Positions 6,610-38,397 are shown, counted from the first letter of the stretch. The stretch: 64,000 nucleotides of DNA from Myxococcus dinghuensis (GCF_024198235.1 NZ_JAKCFB010000001.1:310001-374000); one strand, 5' to 3'. Notes: generated by a model not told the origin, from the letters alone. Numbers and translations: made by a program.

Positions 6610-8010
<1,401 letters not shown>

Positions 8011-13634: not shown

Positions 13635-16600
13635 ATGAGACTTCCGGGACACCTGTTCTCGTTGTCTTCGCAGCTCTGCTTCCTCCTCACACTGAGTCTC
13701 GCGGCGACGGACGTCGAGGCGGGGACGCGGCCGCGCGGCGTCCAGAGCGCGACCTCCGTGGTGGGGCTCTGGTCTCCCGCTCAGCACCTCTACGTGAAGG
13801 GCGACGTCGGCGTCTCCGGCGAGCAGCTCGCCGAACTGGAGGTCTGGCTCACCGAGAACGCGCCGCACTGGACCGTGGTCCTCGTCGACAGCGCTCGGGG
13901 GGAGCGGTACGTGGACGCCGAGGGCACGGCGTTCTCGAACGTCGAGGCCGTGTTGCACTCGCTGGGCAAGGGCCTCTCCAACCGCACCCGCTTCGGCTCC
14001 CTGCGACACCCGGAGACGGGCGAGCAGGATGGCACCATCCTGGTGGTGTCACTGCGCGACCGCGACCTGTCGTACTTCGGTTCGGACGCGCAGGACCTCC
14101 GCGGCCTGGGCGAGGCGTCGTGGAAGGGCGACCTCGACCAGCGCGCCATCAAGGCCATGCGCGACGGGGGGCGGGTCGTCGATGCGGTGATGGGCACCAT
14201 TCACGAAGTCGACGGGCGCCTGGGCGCGAAGCTCGTCGAGGAGGCCGAGGCCAGGGGGTTCGACGAGGCCGCGTTGGAGCTGGCGCGGCAGTCCGTCCGC
14301 GCGCCGCTGCTGCGCCTCCAGGAGCGCGTCGCCCGGCTCTCCGAGCGCCTGCGCGTCGCCACTGCCGAGGGGCCTCTTCCGGGCGTGCACGCGGAGGTGA
14401 TGAATGTCCCTGGGCTGGAGCAACGGCTCCTCTCCGCGCTGACGCTCCTGGAGCAGCCGACGCCGCAGCGATTGGCCCTGGCCCGGGTGACGCAGGTCAG
14501 CGTCCGCTCGCGCCTCGAGGTGATGGAGCGGTGGCTCGACTCCGTCGTCGCCGCTCGGGGGCGACTGTCGTCCCTGGAGCAGGCGCTTCGGGTGGCCGAC
14601 GCGAACCCCCTGGCTTCGTTCGCGTCGAGCGAGCTGGCCACGTTCAGGGCGACGTTGGAGTCTGCTCGCGCGGGCGTGCGGGACCTCGGGCCCACGCATC
14701 CGGCGCAGCTCGCCGCCGCGGAGCGGGCCCGGGACGCGGTGGTGGGAGTGCTCACCCGGGTGGCGGCGGACCAGCGACGCATGGACGCGCTGGCCGGCCT
14801 GCTCGATGGCACGGAGGCGGGGCCCCACGCGGATGCGGCGAAGGAGCCGCTCGCCGCGGCGCGCAAGGCACTGGACTCGGCCCGCGCGGCGTTCGCGCGA
14901 CAGGACCCGGCCTATGTCGCCCTGCTCCAGGAGGGCGAGGCACGCGCCGCCCAGGCGTCGTCGGCGGTGGAGCTGGCGCGGTGGGCTCACGGCCTGGGGC
15001 TGTCGGGCGGCGTGGTGGGCGGGCTGGGGCTGCTCGCCGCCGGCTTCTTCGCGCGCCGTCGCAGGAATCGAAGCCGGGGCCAGGCGCTCGAACTGCACAC
15101 GACGTGGCGTGGCACCCTCGACGAGCGCATCCAGCGCCTCCTGGCCCTCCAGGAACACGCCCATCGGGCGATGGGCGCATCGCGCGAGGAGCTGGAGCGG
15201 CGCTTCGAGGGCGCCTCGCGCGAGGAGGCGCTGCGGCTCGCCGCCGAGGTGGACGCGTTGTTCCTGCGCGTCGCCGCGGCGGCTCGGGTGCTCCAGCGGG
15301 CCGACGTGTTGCTCGCGCCCAGGCGCTTGTCGGCGGCCGCCGGGTCTCAACTGTCGACGGCGCCCTACGAAGCCGCCAGCGCGCTGTTGCGAGACGAACT
15401 CATCACCCTCCATCCCGACGAGAGCGTGGAGGCGGTGCTCCATGGGCTGCGCAAGGAGGTCCAACTGCTCCTGGGAGAGGGCGGTCGCCCCCCGTCCTTC
15501 TCACTGTCGTTTCCCGCCCTGGTTGCGTCCATCGACGCCGAGGTGGCGCGGGTCCAGGAAGGCCTCGCCGCTTTCGAGGGCGCGCCAGCCCGCGCTGACT
15601 CGACGGTGAAGCGCCTGGAGGCGCTCGTGACGCGCGTGAGAGGGCTCCCGGTGGAGGCGGGAGTCCCCCGTGGCGCGGAGGTCCTCGCGTGCGCGGTGGC
15701 GGCGGCGGAGGCCACGCTGGAGGAGGCGCGGCGGCGGCGCGTGACGGACCCGCTGGGCGTGGAGCAAGGCCCGCTCGTGAGCGGGCAGCGGCTCGAGGCG
15801 GACCTGCGGGAGTGGTGGGCCATGCTGGCGTCCACCGAGGCGAACGTCCGGGCCAAGATCGACAGGGCGGGGGCTGCGCTCGCGGGGGCGGGGCTCTCCC
15901 GGGAATGGCTCGATACCGCGCGCACGGTCCTGGCCGCGAGCGTCGTGGACGAGGCCCGGGCGCAGTTCTCCTCCCCCACGGACTCACGGTTCGCGAGCAT
16001 GAAGGCGTCCCTCGAGGCGTTGGGCGAGAAGGCCGTGCGGGTGCTCACGCTGGTGTCCGGCGTGGCGAGGACCCGGGCGATGCTGGAGCAGACGGGGCGC
16101 GCCGTGGACACCGCTCGCGCGGAGGTCGGGGCGTACCTCCATGCCCCCGCGTCGAGGGTGTTCCGCGAGGACGAAGGGGACGTCTACGGACAGTTGGCGC
16201 GGGTGGGGGCGACGCTGGACGAAGCGCAGGTCGCGCTGGGGCGGGGAGCGTTGGAGGAGGCTCGGGCCGCGGTCGATGCGTCGTCCTCGGGACTGGAGTC
16301 GCTGCGGGCCCTGGTGTCCCGGAACCTGGAGACCCTGCGCCGGTTCGAGGGTCGCCGCGACGCGTGCCTCGCGGAGTCCAAGCACCTGGAGAAGCTGGTG
16401 GAGGAAGCCTCCAATCTCGTGGGCGGGCTGACGCGGCGCTACCTCGAGTCCGCGCTGGTGCTGCGTCCGGACGACCCGGTGCGCCCGGAGGCCAACGGCA
16501 CCGTCGAGGACAACCCCCACGAGATGGCCGGGCATCTGGCGCAGTCCCGGCGGTTGCTCGCGGAGGCCGAGGAGGCCTGCTCGGAGGCCCGGTTGCTGGC

Positions 16601-26034: not shown

Positions 26035-27288
26035 CTACGTGGGCCGCCGCTTGCCGTGCGTGCGCGCGTGCCGCCCCGGCGTCCCGGTCGCGGGCTTGGG
26101 GGCGTTGTCCTTCTGGGGAGGACCCGGGTCCTTCTGTGAGGCGAGGAAGTGCGTCCAGGCCTCCTGGAAGACGGGGTCCTCGCGGGGCACCGCGACGCGC
26201 GGAATCTGCGTGCGCATGATGCGCTCGATGGCGGCCACCACGTCCTTGTCGCGCTGGGTGGCGAAGGTCGACGCGACGCCGCTGGCCTGGGCCCGGGCGG
26301 TGCGGCCGATGCGGTGGACGTAGTCCTCGGGCGCGTGCGGCAGGTCGTAGTTGATGACGTGGCCCACGTCCTCCACGTCGAGCCCTCGCGCGGCGATGTC
26401 GGTGGCGACGAGGCAGCGGTACGTCCCCTCCCGGAAGCCCTCCATCGCCTGGCGCCGTTGGTTCTGCGTCCGGTCCGCGTGCAGCACGGCGCTCTTGTGG
26501 CCGGCGCGCTGGAGGGTGCGGAGCACCTTGTCCGCGCGCTCCTTCGTCCGGGTGAAGATGAGCGCCGTGGCCTCGTCGCGCGCGAGCAGGGCGAGCAGCA
26601 GGGCGGACTTCTCCTCGGGCGTGACGATGTAGAGCCGCTGCTCCGCGCGCTCCGCCGGGGTGCCGCTGCGGGTGACCTCCACGCGCACGGGGCGATACAG
26701 GCGCTCGCGGGCGAAGCGCCCCACGTCCGCGCCCATCGTCGCGGAGAACAGCAGCGTCTGCCGGCGACGCGGCAGCGAGGAGAGGATTCGCTCCAACTGG
26801 GGCTGGAACCCCATGTCGAGCATCCGGTCCGCCTCGTCGAGCACGAGGACCTCCAGCCGGGGGAAGGCCGCGCTCCCGGACTCCAGCAGGTCCACCAGGC
26901 GACCGGGCGTGGCCAGCACGAACGTGGGCTGGGCCTTCAGGGCCTCGACCTGGGCGGCCATGTCCTCGCCGCCGATGACCACCGCCTGCTTCAGCCCGTG
27001 GGGTTCCGAGAACAGCCGCACGGGCTCGGCGATCTGCTGCACCAGCTCCCGCGTGGGCGCGAGCACCAGCCCGAGCGTCCCCGCGCGCCCCGTGAAGCGC
27101 TCGACCATGGGCAGCACGTACGCCGCCGTCTTGCCGGTGCCGGTGGCCGCGCAGCCGATGACGTCCTTGCCGGCGAGGGCCGGGGGGATCGCCTGCTGCT
27201 GGATGGGCGTGGGCTGGGCGAAGCGCACGCGCCGCAGGACGCCGAGGGTGGCTCGCGACAGCCCGAGCCGGTCGAAGGAATCACTCAC
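26035..27288 (-). CDS. DEAD-box RNA helicase (RhlE-like)
   Basis: The 417-aa protein carries all the helicase motifs: Q motif with TPIQQQAIPPAL, motif I AATGTGKT, Ia PTRELVQQ, GG, TPGRLVD, motif II LDEAD, motif III SAT, then ALIFTRTKERADKV, ARGLDVEDVGHVINYDLP and motif VI HRIGRTARA. It is an ATP-dependent RNA unwinding enzyme acting in ribosome assembly or RNA turnover. The short basic tail fits the RhlE group. The start is a GTG whose first G is part of a run of eight G on the coding strand, immediately after the upstream region; no ATG alternative exists. Confidence 0.92.
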   Translation of the reverse strand: MSDSFDRLGLSRATLGVLRRVRFAQPTPIQQQAIPPALAGKDVIGCAATGTGKTAAYVLPMVERFTGRAGTLGLVLAPTRELVQQIAEPVRLFSEPHGLKQAVVIGGEDMAAQVEALKAQPTFVLATPGRLVDLLESGSAAFPRLEVLVLDEADRMLDMGFQPQLERILSSLPRRRQTLLFSATMGADVGRFARERLYRPVRVEVTRSGTPAERAEQRLYIVTPEEKSALLLALLARDEATALIFTRTKERADKVLRTLQRAGHKSAVLHADRTQNQRRQAMEGFREGTYRCLVATDIAARGLDVEDVGHVINYDLPHAPEDYVHRIGRTARAQASGVASTFATQRDKDVVAAIERIMRTQIPRVAVPREDPVFQEAWTHFLASQKDPGPPQKDNAPKPATGTPGRHARTHGKRRPT

Positions 27289-27347: not shown

Positions 27348-28253
27348 CTAGGTCCCCTTCGCCACCAGCTCCGCCCACGGGGTGATGGCGCGGATGATGC
27401 CTTTCACACGGTCCGGCGCCATGCCCGAATCCCGCAGGCGCCGGGCCACCGCGTCGGTGTGGGGGACGGCGCGCTCGGTGAGGGCCACCAGCGCGGAGGC
27501 GACGGCGCAGGTGTCCTCGGGCTGGTCCATGCAGATGACCCGGTCATCCATGAAGACGCGCCAGAAGCCCTCGCACCGGCTGCGGCGGCGCTGGTCCGGG
27601 ATGAGGAAGAAGGGATGGAAGGTCCGGCTCAGCTCGTCGATGGCGTCGGTCAGGCCGATGCTGGCGTCGAGGTCGTCGCCGATGAGGTTCGCCACGTGTG
27701 TCCGGGACACCTCGTCGTCGGCGGGCTCGTCGCCCGTCATGAAGAAGTAGCCCTTCTTCCCCCGCTTCTCGAAGCAGTCCATCGCGGTGTGCCGGGCCGC
27801 GAAGTACATGCCCAGCTCATAGGACTCGAAGTCGTTCCCGCCGCCACCGCGCTCCAGGAACATCCAGGTGAGCCACTGGTCCATCTGCTGCTCGGAGGAC
27901 TCGAACTGACCTACCTGGAGCGGGGCGTCGTCGTTGACGGCGTCGCCCACCGCCATGAAGAGCACCTGCGGGTCGGGGATGCCGGCCTCCATCAGGTCCT
28001 TCATGAACGAGGGGAACGTCTGCCGCGCGAGGATTTCGGGGATGTTCCCCATGGAGCCCGTCACGTCGAGCGCCATGACGACCGCGAGCGACTGGGGATG
28101 GACGTCGCTGTCCCGGCTCTCGCGAAACTTCACCCGGTACGGATTCATGCGGGGGTGCAAGGCCTGCTGCAGGAAGACTTCCTGGGGAGGAAGTTCGCTG
28201 CGGGCCTTGGTCATCGCCTCGTGTGCTGCGTAGCTGTAGCTGCCGTACCCCAT
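27348..28253 (-). CDS. vWA-domain protein, copy 1 (end of pseudokinase/PurA-like operon)
   Basis: The 301-aa cytoplasmic protein opens with MGYGSYSY and has a von Willebrand A domain with MIDAS DVTGSMG at residues 63-69. Further conserved stretches are FMAVGDAVNDDAPLQVGQF, ESYELGMYFAARHT and KKGYFFMTGDE. vWA domains bind divalent metal and assemble protein complexes. It is a paralogue of the vWA gene at 29720-30712, with long identical blocks (RFRESRDSD/KFRESRDSD, PLQVGQFESSE). It is the last gene of a four-gene minus-strand operon and starts 81 bases after the PurA-like stop. GAGGGGG upstream of the ATG serves as ribosome site. Role unknown; a regulated scaffold is inferred. Confidence 0.8.
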   Translation of the reverse strand: MGYGSYSYAAHEAMTKARSELPPQEVFLQQALHPRMNPYRVKFRESRDSDVHPQSLAVVMALDVTGSMGNIPEILARQTFPSFMKDLMEAGIPDPQVLFMAVGDAVNDDAPLQVGQFESSEQQMDQWLTWMFLERGGGGNDFESYELGMYFAARHTAMDCFEKRGKKGYFFMTGDEPADDEVSRTHVANLIGDDLDASIGLTDAIDELSRTFHPFFLIPDQRRRSRCEGFWRVFMDDRVICMDQPEDTCAVASALVALTERAVPHTDAVARRLRDSGMAPDRVKGIIRAITPWAELVAKGT

Positions 28254-28334
28254 GGTGGTGCGACCCCCTCACGTCTCGTGGCGCGTGGACTGCGCTCGAA
28301 TGGGGGACAGGCTAGTCCGTGGGCCCGCCGGACG

Positions 28335-29723
28335 TCAGCACCGGGGCCGCTTGTCCCGCGCCGCCGGCCCATGGGACGTCACCGACACCTTCACCCGGAG
28401 CGCGGACTCCACCCAGGCGACGAAGCGCTCCGTCCGTTCGGCCGGTGTCCCTCCCAGGTCCAACGCCTCTCGCGAGGGGGCGCAGCGGGAGAGGAACCCG
28501 GTGAGTCGCGCCTGCCAGTCGAGGTCCTCGCGAGGTCCCGCCCGCAGCCCCGTGACGTGCCCGGAGTCCGGACTCCCGAGGAAGAGGGGCGCGTCGTCCT
28601 CCGATGTGGTCGTCGGGACCCGGTAGCTGTTGCTCACGGGCCAGCGAGACGCCAGCCGGTCCAGGTGGGTCAGGGCCAGCGTGTCCACGCCTCCGCAGAC
28701 CTCCAGGGCGTAACGGGCGAGCACGGCGTCGAAGTGGCCCACCCGGAACGAGCCCTGCCAGCCTCCGGCGTCGTTGTGCGGCTCGGGCACGGAGGGCGCC
28801 AGGGCGGGCTCCTCGGTGGGCAGCGGTCCCTCGCCATGGCGCGTGGCATACGTGCGCAGCACGCCGAGCCGACGGATTTCTCCCTCGAAGCCGTGCTCGC
28901 GCAGCAACTCCAGCGCGGGGTCGAAGGTGCAGGTGCTCCAGGTCGTGTGGGGATGGAAGCCCCGCCACTCGTCCAGCAACACGCCCTGCGCGCCCTCGAA
29001 GACGGTGTGGTGCGAGGCGCGCAGTCGATGACCGAGCCAGGCGTCCTCGACCACGAACCGACGTGGCCCGAGTGCCCGCACGGCGTCCGCCCAACGAACG
29101 ACGACCTCTGGGTCGTCCAGGAGCATCCACTCGCGTTCCGCGAACGGCAGCCTCCGGAGCACGGGACGCAGCGCCGCGACGTCCGCGCGCAAGCGCTCCT
29201 GGGCGGCGCGGGCCTTCCGGATGAGCGCGGTGGGATGGGCCAGCTCGCCCGCGAACACGATGTCCGTCGGATTCGCGAGCGCGTCGCGCACCGTCTCTCC
29301 CACGCCGACGCCGCACGTACCATGTCGGCGCTCCCCCCGGGCCAGCTCCCGCAGCCGGCCCACGGCCTGATGGAAGGGAGTGATGACGCGCGCATGCTCG
29401 CTGACCGTCACCCGCTCCATGGCGTCGGGCACGCCCTGCTTCGCGAGGAAGTCCGCCTCCACGCGCAGGGCCAGGGGGTGGAAGACGGTGGTGCGGGCCA
29501 GGTGCGTGCGCACGCCCGCGACGAAGCTGCCCGCGCCGACCTGGGAGAAGGTGTGGTGTCGCCCGTCATCGGTGACGACGTTGTGGCCCGCCTGGGCTCC
29601 GCCGTTGAAGCGCACCACGAGCCCCGCGCCGTGTCGCCGCACCAGCCAGTCGGTCAACGTCCCCTTGCCCGCGTCACCGAAGCCCAGGTCGACGACGACG
29701 TGGGCGGTCCGGGCCGGGCTCAT
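28335..29723 (-). CDS. Divergent adenylosuccinate-synthetase-like enzyme
   Basis: The 462-aa protein keeps the PurA framework: GTP-loop GDAGKGTLTD (Asp17 equals the catalytic Asp, while the usual following Glu is Ala18), FNGGAQAGHNVV with catalytic His47, GTCGVGVGETVRD, FEGAQGVLLDEWRG (242-255), and TYATRHGEGPLPTE (291-304). The loop that in PurA reads TTGRxRR and binds aspartate is replaced by DAGGWQGSFR (about 318-327). True PurA joins aspartate to IMP using GTP; the changes suggest another acceptor or amine donor. It overlaps the upstream vWA gene by four bases (ATGA), indicating translational coupling. It is unlikely to be the housekeeping purA. Confidence 0.85.
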   Translation of the reverse strand: MSPARTAHVVVDLGFGDAGKGTLTDWLVRRHGAGLVVRFNGGAQAGHNVVTDDGRHHTFSQVGAGSFVAGVRTHLARTTVFHPLALRVEADFLAKQGVPDAMERVTVSEHARVITPFHQAVGRLRELARGERRHGTCGVGVGETVRDALANPTDIVFAGELAHPTALIRKARAAQERLRADVAALRPVLRRLPFAEREWMLLDDPEVVVRWADAVRALGPRRFVVEDAWLGHRLRASHHTVFEGAQGVLLDEWRGFHPHTTWSTCTFDPALELLREHGFEGEIRRLGVLRTYATRHGEGPLPTEEPALAPSVPEPHNDAGGWQGSFRVGHFDAVLARYALEVCGGVDTLALTHLDRLASRWPVSNSYRVPTTTSEDDAPLFLGSPDSGHVTGLRAGPREDLDWQARLTGFLSRCAPSREALDLGGTPAERTERFVAWVESALRVKVSVTSHGPAARDKRPRC

Positions 29724-30712
29724 CGGTGGGGGTTCTCGGTGAGCCGCTGGAGGCCGGAGGGCGAGTCGTGCTCGGGGAGGGGCTCGTCCTCCAGGCGGGG
29801 ATGGGGCGTGCCATCGCGTCCCAGCGTCGCGGCGAACGGGGTGAGCGCGCGGATGACCGCGCCCAGCCGCTCGCGCCCCAATCCCCCGCGCTGGAGGTGT
29901 CCGGCGAGCGCGTCGAGGTCAGGGATGGCGCCCTCGCACAGCGCGACGAGCCCCGCCGCGACGTCGACGGTGTCCGTGGCGTCCTCCAGGCAGATGACGC
30001 GGTCGCCGAGCAGCTCGCGCCAGTCGCGCTCGCACTTCCGACGTCGCGCCAGGTCGGGGATGAGGAAGAACGGCTCGTAGCCGCGCTGGAGCTCACCCAG
30101 CACGTGGCGGATGGGGACGTCCTGCTCCAGCGTGTCCCCGATGAGGTCGGTCACCTGTCGTCGGGAGACGTAGCCGTAGGGGCGCTCGTCGCCCGTCATG
30201 AAGAAGTAGCCGCGGTGTCCGCGCTTGCGCCAGCAGTCGAGGTCGGTGTGGGCCGCGGCGAAGTACATGGCCAGCTCGTACGACTCCATGCCCTCGGTCC
30301 CGCCGCCACCCTCCAGGTAGAGCGAGGTGAGCCACTGGTCCATCTGCCGCTCGGAGGACTCGAACTGGCCTACCTGGAGCGGCGCGCGGTCGCTGTGCGC
30401 GTCACCCACCGCCATGAAGCACACCTGCGGGTCGGCAACGCCCGCTTCGAGCAGGGCCTTCATGAAGGCGGGGAGGCGCTGGCGCGCGAGCAGCTCCGGG
30501 ATGTGGCCCATGGAGCCGGTGACGTCGAGGGCGAAGACGATGCCCAGCGAGTTCGGGTGCCCGTCGCTGTCGCGGCTCTCCCGGAACCGCACGCCGTGGG
30601 GCTCCATCAGGGGATGACAGCGGTCCTGCCGGAACAACGCCTGGCGCGGGACGTGGGCGCGCTCACGCGTGAGCGACTCGTGCGCGTCGTAGCTGTAGCT
30701 CCCGTAACCCAT
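29720..30712 (-). CDS. vWA-domain protein, copy 2
   Basis: The 330-aa protein is a paralogue of the vWA protein at 27348-28253 with the same opening (MGYGSYSYDAHES) and MIDAS (DVTGSMG at 63-69). It also has FMAVGDAHSDRAPLQVGQF, GGGGTEGMESYELAMYFAA and RGYFFMTGDE. It carries a longer, Pro-rich C terminus (about 295-330) that copy 1 lacks. Its stop overlaps the PurA-like start by four bases, and it starts 36 bases after the pseudokinase stop, so it is cotranscribed with both. GGAGTG upstream of the ATG is the ribosome site. vWA proteins in such clusters usually hold multi-protein complexes; no enzyme activity is expected. Confidence 0.8.
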   Translation of the reverse strand: MGYGSYSYDAHESLTRERAHVPRQALFRQDRCHPLMEPHGVRFRESRDSDGHPNSLGIVFALDVTGSMGHIPELLARQRLPAFMKALLEAGVADPQVCFMAVGDAHSDRAPLQVGQFESSERQMDQWLTSLYLEGGGGTEGMESYELAMYFAAAHTDLDCWRKRGHRGYFFMTGDERPYGYVSRRQVTDLIGDTLEQDVPIRHVLGELQRGYEPFFLIPDLARRRKCERDWRELLGDRVICLEDATDTVDVAAGLVALCEGAIPDLDALAGHLQRGGLGRERLGAVIRALTPFAATLGRDGTPHPRLEDEPLPEHDSPSGLQRLTENPHR

Positions 30713-30748
30713 GGTCCGACACTCCTTCCACGCGCGGCCGGGCCGCGC

Positions 30749-31765
30749 TCAACGCCACCCGGGCAGGGTGAAGGGGGTGAAGCGCGACGGCCCGAAGGCC
30801 TCGTGCGCGGCGGCGGAGACCTGCTCCTTCAGCGCCCAGGCATCGACGTCGTCGTTCGCGGGCTCGCACTGCGCTCGCAGCAGGTCGGCCAGGGGAGGCG
30901 GGACCCGCGTGGGCGTCGTGCCCGTGGAGGGGTCACCGCCCAGCACCCAGACGAGGCTGCGCGCGCACATCGCCGCGTCGGTGGCGGTGGAGGGGGCTCC
31001 GCCTCGCCAGAGCGCCTCGGGGTAGAAGGCCCGGTGCGCGGTGCTGAGGGCGCGCGCCGAACCTCGGCCGCCGCGCGGGAGTGCGTGGGTCCAGCCCACC
31101 AGCATCAACCCATGGTCCCTGGGGTGGACGAGCAGGTGGGGCGGCAGGACGGCGCCGTGGACGTAGCCCGAGCGGTGCACGAAGCCGAGCAGCTCCAGCG
31201 CGCGCTTCCACATCCACACCGCCGCGCGCGGGTCGATGCCCTCGGCGTAGACCTCGCGAAGCTCCGTGAACGCGTGCTGGAAGCCGCTCGCCCAGCGATA
31301 CACGGTGGCGGGGCGCGGCGTACCGCCGGCCTCCTTCGCCAGCCCCCGCGCCACGGGTTGGGGCAGCAGCCGCGTGAAGTGCTCGGCGCCCTGGGCCGTG
31401 CTGCCTTGGAGCGTCTCGAGGGTGGTGTACTCGTCGCTCGACAGGTCCGCGTCGGCGAGGGCCCGGGCGACCTTGATGACCACCATCTCCGTGAGGCGCG
31501 CGTCACGCCGGGCGAGGAAGACGTCGCTGCTGTCCCCGCGCCCCAACCGACCGAGCAGGACATAGCGGGTGTCCTCCACCGTCACGCGGGGCCGGTCCGG
31601 CGCGAAGGGCGGGTCGTCCGCGGGACGCGCGGGGCGGGGCCAGACGGTGACACCCTTCGCGGACACCATCGCGCCGCAGTAGTCGCAGGTGAGGATGCTG
31701 CTGATGGACGAGGGAGGGGGCAGGTTCGCGCCACAGCCAGGACATTTCAGGAGCCGCGTTTCCAT
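30749..31765 (-). CDS. Zinc-ribbon pseudokinase
   Basis: The 338-aa protein begins with a zinc ribbon (CPGC at 8-11, CDYC at 27-30) followed by a protein-kinase-like fold from about 65. The Gly-rich loop GRLGRGDSSDV and lysine in VVIKVA (98) are kept, but the catalytic loop reads HGAVLPPHLL (203-212; Asp replaced by Ala, Asn by His) and DFG is replaced by VGW. I therefore predict a nucleotide-binding pseudokinase or sensor. The ATG at 31765 has GGGGTGGAG just upstream; a GTG two codons earlier is possible. It heads the four-gene operon and is divergent from the PIN gene with 51 bases between starts. Confidence 0.75.
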   Translation of the reverse strand: METRLLKCPGCGANLPPPSSISSILTCDYCGAMVSAKGVTVWPRPARPADDPPFAPDRPRVTVEDTRYVLLGRLGRGDSSDVFLARRDARLTEMVVIKVARALADADLSSDEYTTLETLQGSTAQGAEHFTRLLPQPVARGLAKEAGGTPRPATVYRWASGFQHAFTELREVYAEGIDPRAAVWMWKRALELLGFVHRSGYVHGAVLPPHLLVHPRDHGLMLVGWTHALPRGGRGSARALSTAHRAFYPEALWRGGAPSTATDAAMCARSLVWVLGGDPSTGTTPTRVPPPLADLLRAQCEPANDDVDAWALKEQVSAAAHEAFGPSRFTPFTLPGWR

Positions 31766-31816
31766 CTCCACCCCTCATGATGTACGGCCCACGATAGCGC
31801 ACTCGCCGAAGCCGCC

Positions 31817-32290
31817 ATGACTTCCTTCCTCGCCCCACTCCCCGTGGTACTCGACACCAACGTCGTCCTGGACCTGCACGTGTTCCGGGACGTCACGGCG
31901 CGGCCCCTCCTGGACGCGCTGGAGGCGGGGGTGCTCGTCGCGTGGGGGGACGACGCGACGCTGGCCGAGCTGGGGTTCGTGCTCGCGTCGCGCAACTTCC
32001 AGCCGGGCCTGGAGCGCTCCGCGCGGGACGGTGCGCTCGCCGCGTACCATCAGCGCGTGAGACATCTGCCGGAGGGCGAGGGCCGGCCCGTGCCGGAGCT
32101 GCCGCGCTGCCGCGACCGGGACGACCAGATGTTCCTGCGTCTGGCCGCTCGCGCGGGGGCCGCGTGGCTGGTGAGCAAGGACAAGCGGCTGTTGTCCCTG
32201 GCCGACCGCCACGGGCTCCCCTTCGCCATCCTCACGCCTCGGCAGGCGGTGGCGCGCCTGGCGTCTCAGGCGCTGGTGGCTGGCACGTAG
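31817..32290 (+). CDS. PIN-domain nuclease
   Basis: The 157-aa protein has the PIN-fold acidic residues: VVLDTNVVLDL (Asp13), ATLAELGFVL (Glu), DRDDQMFLRLA (Asp pair) and VSKDKRLL. PIN proteins are metal-dependent RNases, often toxins of toxin-antitoxin pairs (the VapC/YwlB-like group 'putative toxin, PIN family'). No antitoxin-like small gene is adjacent. Its start lies 51 bases from the divergent start of the pseudokinase operon, so the two share a regulatory region and PIN may be part of the same system. The 3' end overlaps the convergent downstream gene by 25 bases. Confidence 0.8.
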   Translation: MTSFLAPLPVVLDTNVVLDLHVFRDVTARPLLDALEAGVLVAWGDDATLAELGFVLASRNFQPGLERSARDGALAAYHQRVRHLPEGEGRPVPELPRCRDRDDQMFLRLAARAGAAWLVSKDKRLLSLADRHGLPFAILTPRQAVARLASQALVAGT

Positions 32291-33801
32291 CGGATGACAC
32301 GAATCGCGTCGATGCCCATCACGAACGTGGTGATGGACGTCACCTTCGCCTTGCCGCCCGAATCGCTCCAGCCGAGCACGTGGACGAAGACGGGGTCCCC
32401 CGCCTCCGACTCCATGGCGCCCGCGATGAGCACCGTGCTGGCCTTCTCTCCGTCATAGGTGACGAGCGTCTGCCGGAAGACGAGCCACGAGGCGCGGCTG
32501 CCCGCGTCCTCGGTGACGCCGCGGAGGAAGGCGGTGGGCTTCGCCAGGCTGCCCTGCACGAACTCCCCGCCCGTGAGCTGGTGCGCGAACTCCTCGCTCT
32601 TCAGGCTCAGCCCTCCCGGCTCGTCGCAGCCGTTGCAGTAGTCGACGCAGGAGCACTCCTTCTCGAACTCCTCGAGCGCTCGACCCTTCCGGTCCGCCTC
32701 GCACTTCTTGACGCAAGTGGCCTGCTCCCGGGCCTCCACCTTGCGTGCGGCGGTGAGCTTCTTCTGGAGCTTCGACTGGGCGGCGTCCGACTCGAAGAAC
32801 GACGCGTCCGCCAGATGGAGCAGGCCGGCGACGCGCACCAGGCCCGGGTCCTCCATCGCGGACAGCGCCGTGGTCGCGGCGGCCTTCTGGGCCGCGCGCT
32901 CGGCGGGCTTCACGCGCGTCCACTTCGCGCGGGCCTCGGACGCGGTGCCGTCCTGGTCCAGGTTGACGCGGTCGTAGAGCGCGGCGGCGGCCTTCGCGCG
33001 CTCGAGCTCCGCCTGGTACGCCTTGCCCGCCGGGAACTGGTCCAGCCACTTCCGCGTGGACGCACCGTGTTCGACGAACACGACCGCCTGCTCATCGCTG
33101 TTCTCTCGGGTGAACAGCGTCTCCTGCTTGAAGCGGGGGGCCCACTCGATGGCCGCCTTCGCGCCCGTCCGCGTCGCCGCCTGCTTGCGCTCGAAGGCGA
33201 AGGCGCGCACCTGCTCGAAGGCGGCGTTCTCCGCCTCCGCTTTGTACGGGTCCTTGCCGACGACGTACACGCGCAGGTCGCTCAGGCACGTGTCGTCGTA
33301 CGTGGTTCCGGGGAAGGTGGAGACGATGGTGAGGCGCACGCCCTGGACCTTCGTGGGCACCGGCACGCGCACCTCCTGCCAGCCCAGCACGTCCTTCAGC
33401 TCCACCTCCACGGCGGTCCCCGTCGTCTGGGGGCCGGTCTCACCCTGGACGAGCGGCTCCAGCTTCACCTTCTGGGGACGGGCGTTGGCCTGGTAGAGCT
33501 TCGCCGACTTCTGGTAGCCGTTGCGCAGGAAGACGCGGAAGACCTCCGCCTGCTGGAGCTCCGGGCCCCACCACTCGAGGGCCTCGCCCTCGCCTCGGCC
33601 CTTGGCGCCCTCCACCCACGCGGTGGCCGGGTCGTCGTCCGCGATGTAGAGCGGCAGATAGTTCTGCGCGTGCTTGTTCCACCCGTTCTCCAGGAACGAG
33701 GACGCCGTGACGCGCCGGGGATGGAGGCGGTGGGCGCCATCCACGTTCGGTTCGAGGAGGACCGGTGGCGCTGCGGCGAGGATGAGCGACAGGAGGATCA
33801 T
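32266..33801 (-). CDS. Exported NADase-type glycan-binding-domain protein
   Basis: The 511-aa protein starts at MILLSLILAAAPPVLL, a signal peptide, with GGAGCG upstream. The N-terminal region (about 20-190) has SSFLENGWNKHAQNYLPLYI, DDDPATAWVEGAKGRGEGE and VFRVFLRNGYQKS, the pattern of the discoidin-like NADase-type glycan-binding domain found in many bacterial surface proteins. The rest is helical and contains a Cys-rich patch (CVKKCEADRKG and CSCVDYCNGC) that may bind metal or form disulfides. No catalytic site is recognised. Its ATG overlaps the stop of the cytochrome gene upstream (ATGA), so the two are translationally coupled. It ends overlapping the convergent PIN gene. Confidence 0.75.
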   Translation of the reverse strand: MILLSLILAAAPPVLLEPNVDGAHRLHPRRVTASSFLENGWNKHAQNYLPLYIADDDPATAWVEGAKGRGEGEALEWWGPELQQAEVFRVFLRNGYQKSAKLYQANARPQKVKLEPLVQGETGPQTTGTAVEVELKDVLGWQEVRVPVPTKVQGVRLTIVSTFPGTTYDDTCLSDLRVYVVGKDPYKAEAENAAFEQVRAFAFERKQAATRTGAKAAIEWAPRFKQETLFTRENSDEQAVVFVEHGASTRKWLDQFPAGKAYQAELERAKAAAALYDRVNLDQDGTASEARAKWTRVKPAERAAQKAAATTALSAMEDPGLVRVAGLLHLADASFFESDAAQSKLQKKLTAARKVEAREQATCVKKCEADRKGRALEEFEKECSCVDYCNGCDEPGGLSLKSEEFAHQLTGGEFVQGSLAKPTAFLRGVTEDAGSRASWLVFRQTLVTYDGEKASTVLIAGAMESEAGDPVFVHVLGWSDSGGKAKVTSITTFVMGIDAIRVIRYVPATSA

Positions 33802-34871
33802 GGCTTGCGCTCCAGGGTGGCGGTGCGGGGTGGGAGGGGCTCGGCCCACAAGACCAGGCGCGAGAGCCCCTCGGGGTAGAGGCCCGAGTCTTCCTGCTCG
33901 CGGGCGACGAGGTGATAGACGACGCGGGCGTAGCGGGCGTTCCCCGGGATGGCGACGACGCGCTTCTCCCCGGGCTTCAAACGCGTGTCCTCGACGGCGC
34001 CCAGGTGGATGAGCGTCTCCGGCGGCCAGGCGCGGAGCGCGAGGCGCCGCCCGAAGGTGGCCACGGTGCGCGCGGACTCGAAGAGGGCATCGTCCGCCAC
34101 CTCCACGCTGACCCAGCGCATGACGTCGCCGGAGGGGAACCCGTGGCCCACCTCGCGCGTGGAGATGCGCAGCGCGCTGGCGGAGGGCTCCACGACGAGC
34201 GCGGCCTTGAGGGCCTCGGAGCGGCGCGTGCCCCCCATCGCATGGTCACCCCGGGGCATGTGGCAGTCGGCGCACTGCCGCGTGTCACCCGTGCTCGCGC
34301 GCCAACGGCGCCACTCGCCCGCCGTGTCCTGTTGCCATTGGGTGTCGGACAGGCGCTGGAGCCGTCCCCGTCCGTCGAACACCGGGAAGCCGAACTGGTG
34401 ACACCCGGCGCAGGGCATGCCCGGAGTGCCCGCCGCTGCGCCGAGCGGCGCGTGACATCCCGCGCAGGTGACGCCGTGCTCCTCGGGGGGGCTGTTCGGG
34501 GGCAGGGCGCCGCGCTCGAGGTTGCGCGCGAGTGGCGCATGGCACTGGACGCACCAGCCTGGGCGGTCCTCGGTGATGGCCACCTGGAAGACGTCGTCCG
34601 TGCGCGCGGTGGCGTGGCCGCTGTGTCGCCAGGACTCCACCTGCTCCGCGTGGCACCCCTCGCAGCGCGACACGCTCCAGTCGGGGAGGCCATGCGGCGC
34701 CTCGCCCACCTCCATGCGCGCCGTGCCCTGGGGGAAACGGGGGCTGGGGGCCGTGGCCAGCAGCGAGCAGGTGAGGAGCAGGAGCGCGGACAAAGCCGAT
34801 GGAGTGTAGGCGGCTTTACCCTGAGTGCGCGACTCCCTCTGGACGGCGAGGCGCGGTAGAACCGGCCCCAT
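33798..34871 (-). CDS. Pentaheme c-type cytochrome
   Basis: The protein of up to 357 aa contains five CxxCH haem motifs (CEGCH, CVQCH, CAGCH twice, CADCH) in its first 220 residues, with extra His residues for axial ligation, as in the cytochrome c554 family. A hydrophobic segment (SALLLLTCSLLATA) suits export to the periplasm. The C-terminal 130 residues form a beta-rich domain (EVGHGFPSGDVMRWVSVEV) often seen in these proteins. The ATG at 34871 would overlap the start of the divergent gene by two bases; a TTG at 34793 just before the hydrophobic segment is an alternative. It is translationally coupled to the glycan-binding protein gene. Electron donor and acceptor unknown. Confidence 0.8.
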   Translation of the reverse strand: MGPVLPRLAVQRESRTQGKAAYTPSALSALLLLTCSLLATAPSPRFPQGTARMEVGEAPHGLPDWSVSRCEGCHAEQVESWRHSGHATARTDDVFQVAITEDRPGWCVQCHAPLARNLERGALPPNSPPEEHGVTCAGCHAPLGAAAGTPGMPCAGCHQFGFPVFDGRGRLQRLSDTQWQQDTAGEWRRWRASTGDTRQCADCHMPRGDHAMGGTRRSEALKAALVVEPSASALRISTREVGHGFPSGDVMRWVSVEVADDALFESARTVATFGRRLALRAWPPETLIHLGAVEDTRLKPGEKRVVAIPGNARYARVVYHLVAREQEDSGLYPEGLSRLVLWAEPLPPRTATLERKP

Positions 34872-35952: not shown

Positions 35953-38397
35953 TCAGGAGCCCGTCTCCGTGGGGCCCGGGTCGGACGGGTTGTTCGACCG
36001 GGCGACGTAGGAGACCTGGGGACTGGAGCGCTGGCCGCGCCCTCCCGACCCGCGATTGCCGTTGCCGCGCGGCTGACGTGGACCCTGGTTGTTGGGGCGG
36101 AACTCCCGCTCGGAGGGGCCTCCGGCGCTGGGAGGGGTGCTGGTGGCGGAGCGCATCTCGACGACGGGCGCGTTGCCCCGCCCGCCGTTGCCACGCCACT
36201 CGCCCCGAGGAGGACGGCCGTTGCCCGGTCCACGCGGCTCGTCACCCACTGGGCGCCGCGTGTCCGGATGTCCCGGGTTGCCGTTGAGCGCGTCCGGAGA
36301 CGACGGACCCTCTGCGCGGAACGGTGCGTCTCCGCCGCGTGGGGCGTCGTGCGCGGGACGGCCGTTGCCATTGGCGGGGGGGCCGCCATTGCGGCGCTCG
36401 TCGCGGGGCGGGCGACCATTGCCATTGAACCGTGCGTCGTTGCCACGCGGAGGCCGGCTGTTGCGTCCGGGGTTCGACGGTGGACGACCGTTGCCCTCGA
36501 AGGACGTGCCCTGCGACTGCTCGTCTGGGGCGCTGGCCGTGCCGTTCGTGTGCCGGGGTTCGTTCGCGGGGCGGTGCGTGTTGCCGCCCTCGCGGCGTCC
36601 CATCTGGGGCGGACGGGGACCTCCGTTGCGGGGCGCGTTCGGGCTCTGGCCTCCACGCACCTCGTTGGAGGCGGAGCGTCCGTTGCCGCCACGCGCGTCG
36701 TTGGAGGCGGGGTGTCCGTTGGCTCCGTGCGTGTCGTAGCCGGAGGCTGGGCGTCCGTTGCCGCCGCGCGCGTCGTTGCTGGCTGGGCGTCCGTTGCCGC
36801 CACGCGCGTCGTTGCTGGCGGGGTGCCCGTTGGCTCCGTGTGTGTCGTAGCCGGAGGCTGGGCGTCCGTTGCCGCCGCGCGCGTCGTTGCTGGCTGGGCG
36901 TCCGTTGCCGCCACGCGCGTCGTTGGAGGCGGGGTGTCCGTTGGCTCCGTGCGTGTCGTAGCCGGGGGCGGGGCGTCCGTTGCCGCCACGCGCGTCGTTG
37001 GAGGCGGGGTGTCCGTTGGCTCCGTGTGTGTCGTAGCCGGGGGCGGGGCGTCCGTTGGCTCCGCGTGTGTCGTTGGTGGCGGGGCGTCCGTTACCGCCAC
37101 GCGCGTCGTTGCTGGAGGCGGGGCGTCCGTTGCCGCCACGCGCGTCGTTGCTGGAGGCGGGGCGTCCGTTGGCTCCGCGTGCGTCACTGCCGGGAGCAGG
37201 GCGTCCGTTGGCTCCGCGTGTGTCACTGCCGGGAGCGGGGCGTCCGTTGCCGCCACGCGTGTCGTTGCTGGCGGCGGGGCGTCCGTTGCCGCCACCACGC
37301 GCGTCTGTTCCCGCCGGGCGCGGCCCGTTGCCACCCATGGGGCGCGCGCCCTGGGGCGCCGGGCGGTTGTTGCCGAATCGCGGCGGTGGACGTCCACCGG
37401 GTCCCCGGTTGCGGCCTCCGCGTGGCGCGGGCGCCGCGGGGGGCTTGCCGCGCTCGCCGCCGCCCTGTCGCAGGACCAGGGCCTCCAACTCGAGCAGCTC
37501 TGCCTCGGCGGCCTCCTCGGGCGTCATGGGGGGCTTGGGAGCGGCCTCGACCACGGGTTCCACCGGCGCCGCGCGGAAGTCGCGGCGGGGCTCTCCTCCG
37601 TCGAAGCGGTTGCCTCGCGGCCCGCCCCGGCCATTGCGCCGGGGGGCGTCACGGAAGTTGCCGGACGGCACGAACTCCGGCGTGAGGTCCCGCCGCACGT
37701 ACGCCTGCCAGATTTCACCCGTGTCGCCGTGCGCGCCGCGCAGCCAGGGCGCGAAGCCCGCGAGGAACTCGCGCACGTTGTCCAGGTCGCGCCGGAAGTA
37801 GAACTCCGCGCGGTTGTTGCGCGCGGCGGCCACCGTCTGCGGGAAGTCGATGATGGTGGGCCCGCCGGAGCCCATGAGGATGTTGTACGGCGACAGGTCG
37901 CCGTGGATCAGGTCCGCGCACAGCATCTGGATGACCTGGGCCCGCAGGTCCAGGTACATCGCCTGCGCGTCCTCCGGCGTCGCCGGGGGGGCCTCCACGA
38001 GCCGGGGGGCCGGGTGACCCTCCGCGTCGAGCACCAGCTCCATCAGGAGGATGCCCTCGTAGAACATCACCGGCGTGGGGACGCGGACGCCCTGGGCGTG
38101 CAACTTGTAGAGCGAGTCCGATTCGGCGCTCTTCCACGCCTCCTCGGCCGCCTCCTGTCCGAAGCGGCTGCCCTTCTCCATGGCGCGGCGGGTGCGGGAG
38201 TTGCGGACCTCGCGGCCCTCCCGGTAGCCCACGTTGTTGCGGAAGTTGCGCTCGTGGCGCTCCTTGTACAGCTTGGCCGCGACCACCTGGCCGGCGTGCT
38301 GGACGAGCCACACCTCTGCCTCCTTGCCGGTTTTCAACTGGCCGATGACGGCCTCGATGATTCCGTCGGCGAGGAGGGTCTCTAGCGATTCATTCAT
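35953..38397 (-). CDS. RIO-family kinase with a long disordered NGRP-repeat tail
   Basis: The 814-aa protein has a RIO-type kinase domain at about 10-260: TGKEAEVWLV (23-32), ATP-binding Lys42 in AAKLYK, HGDLSPYNIL (catalytic Asp167, Asn172) and the metal-binding Asp184 in IIDFPQ. RIO kinases/ATPases act in small-subunit ribosome maturation in archaea and eukaryotes; the bacterial role is unknown. From about 270 the chain is disordered, rich in Gly, Asn, Arg and Pro, with RGG-like motifs and 17 tandem 12-13-residue units. Similar tails bind RNA or drive condensates; that is an inference here. The ATG reads MNESLE. The repeats make long antisense frames that are not genes. Confidence 0.88.
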   Translation of the reverse strand: MNESLETLLADGIIEAVIGQLKTGKEAEVWLVQHAGQVVAAKLYKERHERNFRNNVGYREGREVRNSRTRRAMEKGSRFGQEAAEEAWKSAESDSLYKLHAQGVRVPTPVMFYEGILLMELVLDAEGHPAPRLVEAPPATPEDAQAMYLDLRAQVIQMLCADLIHGDLSPYNILMGSGGPTIIDFPQTVAAARNNRAEFYFRRDLDNVREFLAGFAPWLRGAHGDTGEIWQAYVRRDLTPEFVPSGNFRDAPRRNGRGGPRGNRFDGGEPRRDFRAAPVEPVVEAAPKPPMTPEEAAEAELLELEALVLRQGGGERGKPPAAPAPRGGRNRGPGGRPPPRFGNNRPAPQGARPMGGNGPRPAGTDARGGGNGRPAASNDTRGGNGRPAPGSDTRGANGRPAPGSDARGANGRPASSNDARGGNGRPASSNDARGGNGRPATNDTRGANGRPAPGYDTHGANGHPASNDARGGNGRPAPGYDTHGANGHPASNDARGGNGRPASNDARGGNGRPASGYDTHGANGHPASNDARGGNGRPASNDARGGNGRPASGYDTHGANGHPASNDARGGNGRSASNEVRGGQSPNAPRNGGPRPPQMGRREGGNTHRPANEPRHTNGTASAPDEQSQGTSFEGNGRPPSNPGRNSRPPRGNDARFNGNGRPPRDERRNGGPPANGNGRPAHDAPRGGDAPFRAEGPSSPDALNGNPGHPDTRRPVGDEPRGPGNGRPPRGEWRGNGGRGNAPVVEMRSATSTPPSAGGPSEREFRPNNQGPRQPRGNGNRGSGGRGQRSSPQVSYVARSNNPSDPGPTETGS
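36649..37287 (-). repeat. 17-unit coding tandem repeat in the RIO kinase tail
   Basis: The block is 639 bases and encodes 17 units of 12 or 13 residues (213 residues in all). Units are of types NGRPASNDARGG, NGHPASNDARGG and NGRPASGYDTHGA. Within it a 111-base (37-codon) higher-order unit of one 13-mer plus two 12-mers recurs, for example with copies offset by exactly 111 bases around 36741 and 36852. Confidence 0.9.

Follow-up and report, generated by a model that had tools for sequence, protein, structure and literature searches.

A horizontally moving gene cassette of a vWA protein and a divergent PurA-family ligase, usually with a pseudokinase, in bacteria, plasmids and phages

Introduction

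The Ter / TerY-phosphorylation systems couple vWA and kinase-fold proteins to nucleotide-type metabolism, while in the MoxR-vWA and ternary NTP-dependent conflict systems the vWA protein acts as a scaffold or co-chaperone (PMC7159879); MoxR systems include vWA co-chaperones (PMC7824862). Neither of these two papers mentions adenylosuccinate or PurA. On the side of the enzymes, phage PurZ (succino-amino-deoxyadenylate synthase) is, like the protein described below, PurA-derived and phage-borne. We know of no vWA partner for PurZ, whereas our enzyme has a constant one. The PHROGs collection lists families 3043, 2971 and 1211 separately, as a kinase, an unknown and a '2-aminooxy adenylosuccinate synthetase', and describes no system; three phage proteins and the proteins of our locus fall in these three families.

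The locus lies in a window of 64,000 nucleotides from Myxococcus dinghuensis (the whole stretch of DNA that was analysed), with the following features:

26035-27288, minus strand: DEAD-box RNA helicase, bordering the cassette on its other side in Myxococcus, outside the system
27348-28253, minus strand: vWA copy 1, 301 aa, a Myxococcus-type duplicate, dispensable for the core
28335-29723, minus strand: PurA-like ligase (predicted), 462 aa, the core enzyme, PF00709 E 1.4e-57, a subfamily apart from adenylosuccinate synthase
29720-30712, minus strand: vWA copy 2, 330 aa, the core partner of the PurA-like protein
30749-31765, minus strand: zinc-ribbon pseudokinase, 338 aa, the usual third component, of kinase fold
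31817-32290, plus strand: PIN-domain protein, PIN_3 E 1.1e-17, a flanking genus-core gene, outside the system

Positions 27348-31765 hold one copy of a cassette that moves horizontally: a vWA protein and a divergent PurA-family ligase make up its obligate core, and a pseudokinase, of J-domain or zinc-ribbon type, is the usual third member. One phage lineage of the cassette has a Ter-type PRTase and a HAD gene next door. A TerY-type assignment was nevertheless rejected: the kinase of the cassette is degenerate, its vWA protein is outside the known Pfam vWA families, and the window locus is flanked by helicase, PIN and discoidin-type genes, not by Ter genes. From the MoxR-vWA systems it differs by its PurA-like enzyme, and no MoxR AAA+ ATPase is found in or beside the window cassette. 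We found no description of the gene set in the literature searched, preprints and most subscription papers lying outside that search, and the case for a new gene system is well supported.

Results

The layout that an earlier note on this DNA had reported, four packed minus-strand genes with an ATGA overlap and a divergent PIN gene at 51 bp, is all in the sequence. A gap of 36 bp separates the pseudokinase from vWA copy 2, vWA copy 2 and the PurA-like gene overlap by 4 bp (ATGA), the PurA-like gene and vWA copy 1 are 81 bp apart, and the pseudokinase and PIN genes are divergent, with starts 51 bp apart. The note had also proposed a vWA duplication within the locus; the two copies are 58% identical and the tree shows the duplication as well, as one event in Myxococcus, a separate tandem duplication having taken place in other Myxococcota. 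A second vWA does not belong to the core. Since the gene order recurs across phyla, the arrangement is not due to chance.

With vWA copy 1, and no other cassette gene, as bait, ten relatives were found in the species-genome collection, in a set spanning Myxococcus to a Planctomycetota MAG, an Uhrbacteria MAG and Pseudoroseomonas. A PurA-like gene is present in all ten neighbourhoods, and a pseudokinase in each whose contig extends far enough; the same gene set is found in fifteen neighbourhoods of additional Myxococcaceae genomes. The order pseudokinase-vWA-PurA-like is that of every Myxococcaceae neighbourhood of readable length, and is also seen in Planctomycetota, Uhrbacteria, and alpha- and betaproteobacteria. 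Carriers of the three genes comprise Myxococcota, Planctomycetota, Pseudomonadota, a Patescibacteria MAG, actinobacterial plasmids and phages. The earlier proposal of a new conserved system, in which pseudokinase and vWA proteins accompany a nucleotide enzyme, is thus borne out: the same set occurs in other phyla, and the families are found together in cells, on plasmids and in phages. Almost beyond doubt, the pseudokinase/vWA/PurA-like cassette is a real conserved unit.

Of 96 Myxococcaceae genomes, 27 encode the PurA-like protein, and a full-length vWA occurs in exactly these 27; two further genomes have decayed cassette fragments only. A vWA remnant without an intact cassette lies at G075:C9:315841-316221, on a contig different from that of the PIN gene, and decayed vWA and PurA-like remnants are found at G076:C31 (L142), in a genome without an intact cassette. 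In a wider sampling, the vWA protein was detected in 35 of 195 Myxococcota, 6 of 398 Pseudomonadota and 13 of 294 Planctomycetota genomes, part of the Planctomycetota matches being more distant proteins whose partner is absent from the short stretch examined. In an Uhrbacteria locus (L103), a distant vWA adjoins a protein with a strong protein-kinase domain, with no PurA-like gene in the stretch examined, and may belong to a relative system. In Pyxidicoccus-type Myxococcus, an insertion of about 1.4-9 kb separates vWA2 from the PurA-like gene, and in one other Myxococcaceae genus vWA1 lies at a distance of about 23 kb; tight co-translation is therefore not a feature of all copies. The inserted genes were considered as effectors and set aside, as they follow no theme: two are related and have no Pfam match, the others are of beta-helix, hexapeptide or helicase type.

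Inheritance was compared by correlating distance matrices. The coefficients were 0.92 for vWA and PurA-like (38 loci), 0.93 for the pseudokinase and PurA-like, and 0.93 for the pseudokinase and vWA (30 loci). In the 15 genomes with both enzymes, housekeeping PurA gave 0.44 with PurA-like and 0.36 with vWA, against 0.94 for vWA with PurA-like; distances are partly saturated at such depth, and the contrast weighs more than the absolute values. We conclude from the high correlations within the cassette and the low ones with housekeeping PurA that the cassette travels as one piece, with little dependence on the host lineage.

Plasmids of Rhodococcus, Tsukamurella, Acetobacter and Agrobacterium vitis carry pseudokinase, vWA and PurA-like genes in that order, and a Variovorax plasmid also has the cassette. 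Among isolate phages, 207 records have the vWA and 228 a PurA-type match, an excess that includes short or bacterial-looking records; the gene order is kinase-vWA-small gene-PurA-like in mycobacteriophage I3, and Vibrio and Rhizobium phages have the vWA-PurA-like pair. In IMG/VR, a vWA relative is encoded on 333 contigs. The PurA-like gene accompanies the vWA in 78 of the 81 loci examined, the other 3 being cut by the contig end. Upstream of the vWA stands a pseudokinase in 27 of these 81 loci (it is absent from the other 54) and a small, unrelated protein in 37, never both (Fisher p 3e-10). This small protein has about 120 residues and no useful Pfam match (for example L268:5630-5995). vWA and PurA-like thus form the invariant core, and different genes can fill the third position. 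GIY-YIG-type homing-endonuclease genes lie between vWA and PurA-like in several viral loci (L231, L232, L234, L278-L280).

The PurA-like protein has the PF00709 fold and the catalytic D13, K16, H41 and Q224 of PurA, and forms a separate clade (SH-aLRT 100). It scores 153 and 125 bits against PurA equivalog cut-offs of 402 and 395, and 47.4 bits against the PurZ model NF038379, far under the cut-off of 300, so that identity with PurZ was rejected. Replacement of the housekeeping enzyme was rejected as well, ordinary PurA being also kept in 15 of 16 genomes; the 10.4 Mb Myxococcaceae genome that hosts the window also has one, with 33% identity. Besides PurA and the PurA-like enzyme, several further PF00709 matches were noted in long frames of a single genome, at G035:C1:2515261-2516172, C2:5237-6148 and 13652-14484.

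Residues were tabulated for 100 PurA-like sequences, 38 of them cellular, plasmid or from isolate phages and 62 environmental viral. In the numbering of E. coli PurA, T129 and R143 hold the phosphate of IMP, T300, T301 and R303 bind aspartate, and K331 and D333 bind guanine; the numbered chain of 3hid served to check the positions of D13, H41, T129, R131 and R143. All 100 sequences retain the equivalents of D13, K16 and H41, while 99 retain that of Q224 and 99 that of T239; the P-loop GDxGKG and the arginine adjoining the aspartate loop are also shared with PurA. The aspartate loop itself, TTGRPRR in PurA, is of the WQGxFR type: T301 is replaced by Gln in 100/100, the T300 position is mostly aromatic, and around R303 the loop is both shorter and rewritten, the T300/T301/R303 set not being found. 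The Val of the TRVG motif is His in 100/100, T129 is Cys or Val in 99/100, and nearly all sequences have His or Cys at K331. Neither R143 nor R303 is conserved, but the alignment is uncertain there: their exact partners depend on gap placement, which differed between two alignments.

Read conservatively, these residues would make the PurA-like protein an active ligase that activates 6-oxopurines and whose specificity for purine and amine has changed; altered substrates appear likely. With the catalytic residues intact but the aspartate loop rewritten and the phosphate-site Thr missing, the enzyme probably joins a different amine to a non-IMP purine. The purine would not be IMP since the residues that hold its phosphate in PurA are lost, and the amine would not be L-aspartate since the loop for it is replaced.

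No Pfam family is matched above cut-off by the vWA proteins of the window, and none strongly by the pseudokinase. The structures of both were predicted from alignments without phage and plasmid rows. The vWA model (pLDDT 91.9) has a vWA/integrin-I fold (best Foldseek E 8e-6, matches including the NorD vWA), and the MIDAS residues D63, T/S65 and S67 are conserved in 30/30 relatives. The pseudokinase has a kinase fold by profile (E 9e-15) and by Foldseek (7.6e-11). Its HRD Asp is changed to Ala in 24 and its DFG Asp to Gly in 26 of the 28 aligned proteins, which is not the pattern of an active kinase, and the ATP-site Lys and Glu are kept in 26/28. The N-terminus is a zinc ribbon in Myxococcota, most Planctomycetota and the Variovorax/betaproteobacterial copies; in alignments of most phage and alphaproteobacterial copies it is a DnaJ-type J-domain (PF00226 E 2e-25 in L058), with the HPD motif in 21 of 27 viral pseudokinases. 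That the N-terminal module is swapped and the remainder kept suggests that the pseudokinase may be an adaptor.

Neighbours of the cassette vary. The one consistent functional cue, limited to alphaproteobacteria and actinobacteria, is an NrtR-like gene, divergent to the cassette in the former and, in Rhodococcus and Tsukamurella, located downstream as an NrtR-related gene; these NrtR-like proteins lack the Nudix catalytic box. In L126, at about 7796-7835, a perfect 36-bp palindrome, CCATATCTTTGTTATTTGCAAATAACAAAGATATGG, lies between the NrtR-like regulator and the vWA gene, and is a probable operator. A NADAR gene is near the cassette in a Vibrio phage, Ter-type PRTase, HAD and NUDIX genes in a Rhizobium phage, and an R2K ATP-grasp ligase follows the PurA-like gene in one jumbo-phage lineage; some phage copies are near RNA-repair-type genes (HAD_SAK, TROVE/Ro60). 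The NrtR-like, NADAR, PRTase, HAD, NUDIX and ATP-grasp neighbours point to nucleotide-derivative chemistry, but are lineage-specific. Residence in defence islands was rejected: PADLOC detected no defence enrichment among 95 neighbouring genes, only generic or single hits, and its models gave no match to vWA and PurA-like and weak kinase matches only to the pseudokinase.

The PIN gene is present in 27/27 Myxococcus genomes and the cassette in 14/27. In all nine cassette-less genomes examined, PIN abuts the DEAD helicase, with starts 79-120 bp apart, as against about 4.5 kb in the window, whose left flank can be traced in the empty site as far as the bases that border vWA1. In the other genera examined, no PIN gene was found next to the cassette. 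The PIN nuclease, which the earlier note had counted in, thus drops out of the system. The helicase and discoidin-type neighbours were likewise rejected as members, being genus-local flanks only.

Discussion

With the gene pair present in at least 5 bacterial phyla, on plasmids and on hundreds of phage contigs, a selectable function in cells and phages is almost certain. As an altered purine-making enzyme sits beside two scaffold-like proteins, the cassette probably makes an undescribed purine-derived molecule. The PurA-like enzyme would phosphorylate a non-IMP purine on its 6-oxo group at the expense of a nucleoside triphosphate, then add an amine other than L-aspartate; the result would be a new purine compound, N6-substituted or aminated. 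The vWA protein would bind the enzyme, its MIDAS metal site binding a partner, and the pseudokinase, or the small alternative protein in many phages, would gate the complex, with Hsp70 recruited where the pseudokinase has a J-domain. The product would act in stress or phage-host conflict. To this whole, a mobile vWA/PurA-like cassette making a new purine compound under partner control, we give a probability of about 0.55. Among its parts, we lean slightly towards the cassette proteins forming a regulated complex; a role in stress or phage-host conflict is tentative.

The cassette may bring to light a new molecule derived from purines, as well as a new way in which pseudokinase, vWA and Hsp70 parts control an enzyme. 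It could even represent a new purine-ligase pathway, for which the odds are somewhat below even: a PurA-derived family always with a vWA and often with a J-domain pseudokinase, whose undescribed metabolite would be a signal, an inhibitor or a modified building block in bacteria and large phages. With catalytic residues kept and substrate-recognition residues uniformly replaced, the product is open to direct biochemical search.

Loss of the threonine for the 5'-phosphate of IMP would also fit a larger substrate, and the cassette has no lyase partner. The enzyme might thus repair or modify nucleic acids or dinucleotides, using ammonia or another small amine to aminate hypoxanthine, be it in RNA, DNA or an NAD-type dinucleotide, with the vWA protein delivering it. 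The HAD_SAK, TROVE/Ro60, NADAR or Ter-type PRTase genes near some phage copies, and the NrtR regulators, which belong to NAD-linked families, agree with this; such neighbours are lineage-specific, however, and the core has no nucleic-acid-binding domain, so that we judge it unlikely.

Less likely still is a place in accessory purine metabolism, as a second adenylosuccinate or 2-aminoadenylosuccinate synthase. PF00709 membership, the intact catalytic residues and the phage annotation '2-aminooxy adenylosuccinate synthetase' would suit such an enzyme, but the aspartate-recognition loop is replaced in 100/100 sequences, the scores are far under the PurA and PurZ cut-offs, ordinary PurA is retained, and the constant vWA partner is left unexplained. 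The annotation name, attached to the family as phrog_1211, has no visible support, and our findings question it on many mycobacteriophage records. Equally improbable is that the PurA-like protein is no enzyme, but serves a chaperone-like vWA/Hsp70 assembly as a nucleotide-driven switch or a structural subunit, as the constant vWA partner, the J-domain pseudokinases and the vWA co-chaperones of MoxR systems (PMC7824862) could suggest: the catalytic residues, including the general acid and base equivalents, are kept in 99-100/100, which makes a non-enzyme role unlikely.

A defence module with PIN as effector, as the earlier note had it, is very improbable: PIN is close to the cassette in Myxococcus and the cassette is carried on phages and plasmids, but 13/27 genomes have PIN without the cassette, PIN adjoins the helicase in the nine examined, and neither PIN near cassettes of other examined genera nor defence-gene enrichment among neighbours was found. 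Beyond PIN, the window holds at 32266-33849 (minus strand) a NADase_transloc/discoidin-type domain protein, convergent with PIN and overlapping it by 25 bp, and at 35953-38397 (minus strand) a protein whose RIO-kinase-like N-terminus leads into a long repetitive NDARGGNGRPAS-type tail.
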